From the IMG/VR virus record IMGVR_UViG_3300009183_000225, positions 1 through 33,039 of that record: DNA of 33,039 nt. One strand, given 5' to 3'. Every line of letters begins with the position of its first letter. Position 1 is the first letter of the stretch. Positions 13,515-16,035 of the stretch are shown here, in pieces. The translations under genes and the position numbers were made by a program. The stretch comes from a virus. The notes beneath the pieces are model-generated. The model was not told the DNA's origin. It did no database searches and saw only the letters and a list, made by a program, of their open reading frames with translations.

Positions 13515-13527
13515 ATAACTATTTATA
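13514..13527. promoter_or_regulatory. Divergent, overlapping late promoters
   Basis: The minus strand has a perfect TATAAATA at 13520-13527 serving the tube-cap gene (5 bases to its ATG). The plus strand has TATAACTA at 13514-13521, one mismatch, 5 bases before the gp4 ATG. Only 12 bases (13515-13526) separate the two start codons, so each promoter overlaps the other gene's start region. The minus promoter is strong by sequence; the plus one is inferred from position. Confidence 0.65.
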
Positions 13528-13982
13528 TGAAAAAAGGACAGTATTACAGCGGCAAATATAGAGTAGTCAATAAGAGCAAATATGATGGTGACTATAGTGC
13601 AGTGTCATATCGTTCTCTATGGGAACGTCAGGTATTTAAGTGGTGTGATGAAAACGCTGATGTCGTAAAGTGGAACAGCGAAGAAACAATAGTTCCATAC
13701 CGATGTAAAACCGACAATAAGATGCATCGTTATTTTGTTGATCTTAAAATTCAATTTAAAAATGGAAACACATACCTTATTGAGATAAAACCTAAAAAAC
13801 AAACACTTGCACCAAAGGTAAAAACGAGAAAGACAAAGGCATACATTACCGAGGTACTGACCTATGCAAAAAACATATCAAAGTGGAGTGCTGCCAAGGA
13901 GTATTGTGGCGACCGTGGATGGTATTTTGAAGTATGGACAGAAGAAACCATACAAGGACTCGGCATAAAACTACTCACCTAA
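13527..13982 (+). CDS. 4: Head completion protein gp4
   Basis: 151 residues (T4 gp4 is 150). Conserved features: KYDGDYSAVSYRSLWERQVF, WCDENADVVKWNSEE, YFVDLKI and YLIEIKPKKQ. The D...EIK arrangement with the preceding WE resembles the PD-(D/E)xK nuclease core, so this may be a DNA-trimming or neck protein acting after packaging; that activity is inferred. The C-terminus has AKEYCGDRGWYFEVWTEE. It starts the plus-strand late block. Confidence 0.9.
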   Translation: MKKGQYYSGKYRVVNKSKYDGDYSAVSYRSLWERQVFKWCDENADVVKWNSEETIVPYRCKTDNKMHRYFVDLKIQFKNGNTYLIEIKPKKQTLAPKVKTRKTKAYITEVLTYAKNISKWSAAKEYCGDRGWYFEVWTEETIQGLGIKLLT

Positions 13983-14592: not shown

Positions 14593-15132
14593 ATGGCAAA
14601 CAAATCTACAATAAGTGACTTTAAACTTGCTGTTCAGCGAAATCGCGGTTTTGCAAAGGCAAACCGGTTTGCCGTTGAAATTACAAATATGCCTGGTTTA
14701 AGTACAGAGGGTGCAAGAGACCTATCATTTATGTGTGAGTCTGTTTCAATTCCAGGAAAACAAATTACAACATTAGACTATGATAATGGTACACGCCGAC
14801 CATTTAAAATTCCTACAGGAGTGCTTGATGACGATGTTGCAATAACATTTAACTTAACAAACAACTATTTTGTTAAGCAAGCATTTGACACATGGCTCAA
14901 TACAATAATAGATCAACAGTACCTGTTAAACTACATTGATAAGTATGTGCGTGAAGTTATAATTTCACAACTTGATGAAGATGACAACGAAATTTATAGC
15001 GTCAAGCTTGAAAATGCATATCCATTTCAGGTTGCAGCAATTGAATTGGCAAATGCATCTACGGACACAATTTCTACCGTGACTGTTACATTTGCATGTG
15101 ACAGGGTAGTAACTAATTTTTTGAATAAATAA
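14593..15132 (+). CDS. 19: Tail tube protein, gp19-like
   Basis: 179 residues (T4 gp19 is 163). Typical tube-monomer layout: NRFAVEITNMPGL, LSFMCESVSIPGKQITTLDY, RRPFKIPTGVLDDDVAITF and FDTWLNTIID, then a C-terminal strand pair ending VTVTFACDRV. It should stack as hexamers to form the DNA conduit. The closely related gp48/54 fold is an alternative, but the length and lack of extra domains favour the tube. No Shine-Dalgarno is visible before the ATG. Confidence 0.85.
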   Translation: MANKSTISDFKLAVQRNRGFAKANRFAVEITNMPGLSTEGARDLSFMCESVSIPGKQITTLDYDNGTRRPFKIPTGVLDDDVAITFNLTNNYFVKQAFDTWLNTIIDQQYLLNYIDKYVREVIISQLDEDDNEIYSVKLENAYPFQVAAIELANASTDTISTVTVTFACDRVVTNFLNK

Positions 15133-15157: not shown

Positions 15158-15868
15158 ATGGCACTTCCAATATTAGAATCACCGAAATACACATTGACAA
15201 TTCCTTCAACTCAAAAAACAGTTGAATATCGACCATTTTTGGTTAAGGAAGAGAAAATCTTGATGCTTGCGCAACAGTCCAATGATCAAAAACAAATTAT
15301 GTCTTCAATTGAAAGCGTAGTTGAAGCATGTACATTTGGTACAGTAAAGGCAAAACAACTAACATCATTTGACCTTGAATATATTTTCTTAAAGTTAAGA
15401 GCAAAGAGTGTCGGTGAAATTAGTGACATTCGGTGCAAATGTGAAAAATGTGAAGAGTATACTGAGGTTTCAGTAAACATTGATGAAATTGAAGTAACAC
15501 AGCCAACTGAAAAAGTCGACAGCAAAGTTATGCTTACAGACAAGATTGGTGTTGTCTTGCGTCACATACTCGTTGGTGATATGTCGTCAATTGTCACTGC
15601 AGAAGATGTTACGGCTGAAACAGTAACGGACATGATTATTGCTTCAATTGAATCTATTTTTGATGAGAGTGCAGTATATCCAGCCGATCAGTCTACACAT
15701 AAAGAACTCTCAGAATTTGTAAACTCTCTAAGCAGATCACAACTAACAAAAATTGAAAAATTCGTAGAAAACGCGCCAAAACTTAAACATGCCGTTGAGT
15801 TTACATGCAAACCATGTGGACATGCAAACAATTTTATCTTAACAGGAGCACAAGCTTTTTTCGAGTAG
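15158..15868 (+). CDS. 26: Baseplate hub/tail assembly protein gp26
   Basis: 236 residues (T4 gp26 is 208). It fits the T4_baseplate (gp26) family: YRPFLVKEEKILMLAQQS near the start, VEACTFGTVKAKQLTSFDLE, LKLRAKSVGE, and a C-terminal EKFVENAPKLKHAVEF. Two cysteine clusters, C93-x-C95-xx-C98 and C217-xx-C220 with His222, probably bind zinc. It lies directly before the tape measure gene, where other tailed phages keep G/GT-type tail chaperones. The reading frame ends in TTT-TTC-GAG-TAG, which includes a -1 slippery heptamer (separate entry). Confidence 0.92.
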   Translation: MALPILESPKYTLTIPSTQKTVEYRPFLVKEEKILMLAQQSNDQKQIMSSIESVVEACTFGTVKAKQLTSFDLEYIFLKLRAKSVGEISDIRCKCEKCEEYTEVSVNIDEIEVTQPTEKVDSKVMLTDKIGVVLRHILVGDMSSIVTAEDVTAETVTDMIIASIESIFDESAVYPADQSTHKELSEFVNSLSRSQLTKIEKFVENAPKLKHAVEFTCKPCGHANNFILTGAQAFFE

Positions 15869-16035
15869 CCCTCTCACATGACAGTTTAACAAACTATTAC
15901 CAAACAAATTTTGCATTGATGCAACATCACAAGTATAGTTTATCAGAACTGGAAAACATGATTCCGTGGGAGAGGGAAATTTACATATCATTGTTACTAA
16001 ATTACATAAAAGAACAAGAACAAAAACAAAAATAA
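15158..16035 (+). CDS. gp26 frameshift extension product (GT-like; includes 15862-16035 in the -1 frame)
   Basis: Reading 15158-15862, slipping back one base and continuing 15862-16035 gives a 292-residue protein whose last 57 residues are specific to the shifted form (RVALSHDSLTNYYQTNFALM, HHKYSLSELENMIPWEREIY). The extension has no well-placed start of its own. An ATG at 15805 would read most of its upstream part in a frame shadowed by gp26, and the one at 15917 would drop its first third. The order gp26 / extension / tape measure copies the lambda G-GT-H arrangement, in which the extended form loads the tape measure. This may replace T4 gp51, though T4 gp51 is longer. Independent translation is the alternative. 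Confidence 0.7.
15844..15862 (+). promoter_or_regulatory. Probable programmed -1 ribosomal frameshift signal
   Basis: The heptamer T-TTT-TTC (15856-15862) is in the gp26 frame as X-XXY-YYZ, two codons before the stop. An AGGAG Shine-Dalgarno-like sequence lies 7 bases upstream (15844-15848), similar to the stimulator upstream of the dnaX shift site. The -1 frame then stays open for 57 codons, to a stop directly adjoining the tape measure ATG. A weak hairpin (AGTTT/AAACT) lies downstream. All of this is seen in sequence; actual shifting is inferred. Confidence 0.75.

Follow-up and report, generated by a model that had tools for sequence, protein, structure and literature searches.

The window, meaning the whole stretch of DNA analysed, is a 33,039-nt IMG/VR virus record (IMGVR_UViG_3300009183_000225) and possibly a fragment. 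The features of the locus under study are listed in Table 1. The gp26-like gene matched PF12322 (T4_baseplate) at E=1.7e-59 and phrog_150 at E=3.6e-63, and it is located directly upstream of a putative tape measure gene, which matched the tape-measure families phrog_58 (E=3e-11) and phrog_1272 (E=2.9e-8). The 3' end of the gp26-like gene reads GCT TTT TTC GAG TAG, with one sense codon (GAG) between the heptamer T TTT TTC and the stop codon. The first-pass annotation, made from this DNA alone, had described such a heptamer in frame before the gp26 stop, an AGGAG 7 bases upstream of it, and a -1 frame that is open for 57 residues up to the tape-measure ATG. We found all three in the window. The -1 frame runs from the CGA at 15862 through 57 codons to the TAA at 16033-16035, which abuts the tape-measure ATG (TAAATG). 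Elsewhere in the window, the head-closure protein (phrog_218) encoded at 13527-13982 also matched a TnsA-like endonuclease N-terminal domain (PF08722, E=2.4e-18).

Table 1. Features of the tail assembly chaperone (TAC) locus in the window.
Feature	Position	Strand	Basis
Upstream tail tube gp19-like gene	14593..15132	+	PF06841 E=2.5e-10; phrog_45 E=2.6e-39
TAC-N short form, gp26-like tail assembly chaperone, 236 aa	15158..15868	+	PF12322; phrog_150; predicted N-terminal domain possibly HK97-TAC-like
AGGAG, possible internal Shine-Dalgarno-like stimulator	15844..15848	+	weak support
Slippery heptamer T TTT TTC, in frame ahead of the gp26 stop	15856..15862	+	conservation across relatives
0-frame stop TAG closing the short form	15866..15868	+	
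-1 frame extension (TAC-C, 'gp51'), 57 codons and TAA	15862..16035	+	phrog_634; purifying selection; identity to relatives
Predicted long form TAC-NC, 292 aa	join(15158..15862,15862..16035)	+	inferred from conserved heptamer and -1 frame; T4 gp51 alignment
Putative tail tape measure protein, 592 aa	16036..17814	+	tape-measure PHROGs

The locus was compared with those of relatives, consisting of 80 IMG/VR loci with 43-51% protein identity, plus isolates. In all of the 83 relatives first examined, a T TTT TTY heptamer was present near the gp26 stop together with an open -1 frame. The heptamer was kept close before the stop in 93 of the 96 loci with a match, and these heptamer-bearing loci, when clustered at 90% nucleotide identity, formed 57 non-redundant clusters. 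The variants in the full locus set were TTTTTTC, TTTTTTT and, once, TTTTTTG. Among the 57 clusters, the distance from the heptamer to the stop was 0-8 codons, and every one of them showed a -1 extension of 42-70 residues. The codon preceding the two Phe codons was always NNT, encoding Ser, Asn, Asp or Ala, and the first Phe codon was always TTT, as compared with shares elsewhere in the genes of 26% for NNT among such codons and 57% for TTT. If the amino acids are held constant and codons are drawn according to the usage of each gene, NNT-TTT would be found in all 57 with a probability of about 1e-37, a figure that ignores shared ancestry. Conservation of the heptamer by chance is excluded, and the constant use of NNT despite its 26% share elsewhere shows that the constraint acts on nucleotides. 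The comparison covered the points fixed beforehand as capable of overturning a frameshift, namely the heptamer, the -1 frame and a separate start, and it left that reading standing. We also considered a sequencing error as the source of the frame break and rejected it, because independent relatives share the break. In Pelagibacter phage Mosig (L002:3196-3232), the 0 frame continues eight codons beyond the heptamer, as compared with 0 or 1 in other relatives.

The 57 residues encoded in the -1 frame matched phrog_634 ('gp51, baseplate hub assembly catalyst') at E=4.5e-28; a Pfam search with the extension gave no convincing family, and a PDB sequence search gave no relevant match. TAC-C is predicted to fold into helices, the C-terminal one being long (pLDDT 83). 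Across relatives, the extension showed 54-74% identity to that of the window and is thus better conserved than gp26 itself (44-50%). To describe selection on this segment, we counted single-difference codons at codons 3-17 past the shift, a stretch that lies ahead of the point where a start codon usually first becomes possible in the extension. In the -1 frame, 4127 were synonymous and 611 non-synonymous (87% synonymous), in comparison with 1117/7634 and 860/8110 in the other two frames (13% and 10%); the pairs of loci behind these counts are not independent, although the frames differ by a wide margin. Strong purifying selection thus acts on the extension in the -1 frame, also upstream of any usable start, and this pattern in the sequences indicates translation of the -1 frame. 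In 42 of the 57 loci, the extension has its first ATG, GTG or TTG at a codon index of at least 18, and the segment LSHDSLxNHYQTNF, which lies upstream of that index, is conserved. The first-pass annotation had called the -1 segment protein-like and without a suitable start. Selection in the -1 frame bears out the former, whereas the latter is not strictly true of the window, because two ATGs (15805 and 15814) are located in the -1 frame upstream, inside gp26. An upstream ATG in this frame occurs in only one of the 57 non-redundant loci, that of the window, and any upstream ATG, GTG or TTG in eight. These ATGs, which are not conserved, could in principle serve as starts of a separate product in the window genome.

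One alternative explanation is that gp51 is a separate small protein with its own start, and that the T-run merely represents codons for a conserved Phe-Phe. In public records, gp51 is indeed given as a short CDS of its own with a separate start codon, and an ATG at extension codon index 18 is the first start in 33 of the 57 loci. However, conservation is among the highest at residues ahead of this start (SHDSL, N, F), which are also selected in the -1 frame, the NNT-TTT codon choice is unexplained by the amino acids, and T4 carries a gp51 fusion in one frame, as described below. Moreover, none of the 11 annotated isolate records of the frameshift type that we inspected contained a joined CDS, and gp51 was either missing or given starts that vary between phages, suggesting that 'gp51' is misannotated or missing there. 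We regard a separately started gp51 as very unlikely.

The relation to T4 was assessed by profile comparison. T4 gp26 aligned with TAC-N (E=7e-20) and did not contain TAC-C (E=0.6), while T4 gp51 contained TAC-C (E=6e-6), and the joined TAC-NC profile aligned with T4 gp51 along nearly its whole length (E=8e-15). By these alignments, T4 gp51 consists of a gp26-like body to which TAC-C is joined in one reading frame, with gp26 corresponding to the short form and gp51 to the long form. The three loci of the 96 in which the heptamer is absent belong to one Ackermannviridae phage and two Straboviridae, pKp20 and Henu6, the latter two having a two-gene arrangement. By the alignments of gp26 and gp51 with the short and joined forms, T4, pKp20 and Henu6 carry both forms as separate genes; in contrast to the window, these genes are oppositely oriented and frameshifting is not needed. 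Most other T4-like relatives examined (cyanophages, Pelagibacter, Vibrio, Aeromonas Aeh1, Stenotrophomonas and Rhizobium phages) have one gene with a slippery site. Among the matches listed, full-length cyanophage relatives showed one gp26-like place per record, so that no separate long copy was seen there; the 33-kb record, itself possibly a fragment, likewise gave one gp26-like match. A simple reading of T4's need for both gp26 and gp51 would be that a single chaperone is supplied in a short form by the former and in a long form by the latter.

We examined the predicted fold of the short form. The AlphaFold2 model of TAC-N had a pLDDT of 87, and the top VIA-align rows for its N-terminal ~95 residues included the HK97 tail assembly chaperone 2ob9 (Z 6.7), 3fgx (Z 7.7) and yqbN 3klu (Z 6.3), all middling scores under 8. 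A Foldseek search with the TAC-N model gave nothing significant (E above 0.1). The predicted N-terminal domain of gp26 thus appears to resemble solved tail assembly chaperones, including that of HK97, a moderate resemblance that supports the analogy with the G/GT/tape-measure system drawn in the first-pass annotation. TAC-N also carries conserved Cys pairs that are split-zinc-ribbon-like (C95, C98 and C217 invariant, C220 conserved in at least 90%), and T4 gp26 has a similar Cys pattern.

Taking sequence, structure models and analogy together, we consider it highly probable that the window gene is a frameshifted TAC gene of a marine T4-like phage, producing TAC-N and a predicted TAC-NC. The programmed -1 frameshift originally proposed is very probably right, as suggested by the conservation of the heptamer, the selection in the -1 frame and the in-frame fusion in T4 gp51. 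Most ribosomes would terminate at the TAG at 15866, giving TAC-N (gp26, 236 aa). In a fraction of them, the tRNA-Phe in the two sites, paired with TTT TTC, would move back by one base to TTT TTT. Reading would then continue with CGA GTA GCC..., and the product would gain the 57 residues of the helical TAC-C ('gp51'), making up the 292-aa TAC-NC. By analogy with gpG/gpGT of lambda, whose slippery sequence differs from the T TTT TTC of the window, TAC-C may bind the tape measure from the next gene, and the N-domains may coat the tape measure until the tube polymerises. The position before the tape measure and the apparently TAC-like predicted N-domain fit this G/GT logic. The comparisons above show the conserved site, the selection in the -1 frame and the homology to T4 gp26 and gp51; slippage, its efficiency and tape-measure binding we infer. 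A second alternative, in which ribosomes terminate at the TAG and re-initiate by stop-start coupling to give free TAC-C, the heptamer being a by-product, finds a parallel in TAATG stop-start overlaps at the equivalent place in some Ackermannviridae relatives, but it appears still more improbable than a separate gp51, since an ATG within the first five -1 codons past the shift occurs in 7 of the 57 loci and not in the window, and free TAC-C would lack the chaperone body to which it is fused in T4 gp51.

Possible stimulators of the slippage were also examined. A conserved GG located 9 nt upstream of the heptamer also encodes a conserved Gly, and pairing with the anti-Shine-Dalgarno sequence was slightly stronger than in synonymous shuffles (-5.3 versus -4.6 kcal/mol). 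A role of the AGGAG as a frameshift stimulator is, on these sequence data, weakly supported. No stimulatory RNA structure was detected downstream of the heptamer in the window (z=0.74), a consensus fold across relatives gave no consensus pairs, and an Rfam search gave no meaningful match. Since no downstream structure was detectable and the support for AGGAG is weak, the six-U run may be the main basis of the slippage.

Vladimirov, Gautam and Davidson (Virology 2022, 566:9-15) identified TAC genes in T4-like phages. They reportedly found the frameshift to be conserved in several groups of these phages, with genes 26 and 51 serving in T4. The PRFect paper (PMC10885494) cites Vladimirov et al. 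2022 for T4-like phages that carry a short gene and a fused long gene, with no frameshifting, and the paper on phage Adele (PMC12846349) cites the same work for -1 frameshift signals of the poly-T type that T4-like phages have in their TAC-N genes. As presented in these two papers, the T4-like TAC-N/TAC-NC genes share with the window a TAC gene with a poly-T slippery site, and we noticed no substantive difference. The TAC genes of Vandenendeviridae and Andersonviridae, as described in the phage Adele paper, are likewise similar in the T-run slip, the open -1 frame and the misannotation as a separate gene; they differ in having a GTTTTT site, a slightly different motif, and in belonging to other phage families. 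The frameshifted tail chaperones of lambda (G/GT) and P2 (E/E+E') are attributed, in PMC12859696, to Levin et al. 1993, Christie et al. 2002 and Xu et al. 2004. Because TAC frameshifting in T4-like phages was published in 2022, the system of the window is already known in kind and the contig is one more instance of it; the earlier remark that such frameshifting is not standard in T4-type descriptions is out of date in view of Vladimirov et al. 2022. As the principle is published, the contribution here is one of breadth (57 non-redundant loci) and corrected annotation. For marine T4-like phages, the comparison indicates that the protein labelled 'gp51 baseplate hub assembly catalyst' does not occur free and instead forms the C-terminal domain of a tail chaperone made by frameshifting.

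Of 48 relatives, 26 have a next large ORF that overlaps the -1 stop or lies directly against it, so that translational coupling of the tape measure to frameshifted ribosomes is possible. No Shine-Dalgarno sequence was evident at the tape-measure ATG of the window, such sequences being weak throughout these phages, and no clear difference in their strength was found between the tape-measure start and the chaperone start. Given this lack of an evident Shine-Dalgarno sequence and the direct contact of the ATG with the -1 stop, frameshifting ribosomes might also be the main initiators of the tape measure, a speculative idea that we consider rather unlikely; if true, the long chaperone and the tape measure would be made in a ratio fixed by a single slip.

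In Ackermannviridae and relatives (L092:3280-3330; L098-L103), the gp26 homologues end in NTT TTY NNN TAA, for example GAG ATT TTC ATT TAA. They are without T TTT TTY, yet their -1 frame encodes a TAC-C-like segment (MPWHLDLL). The junction reads TAATG in 4 of 7 and contains ATT or ATA in 3 of 7, and it could represent either a relaxed slip or a stop-start overlap.
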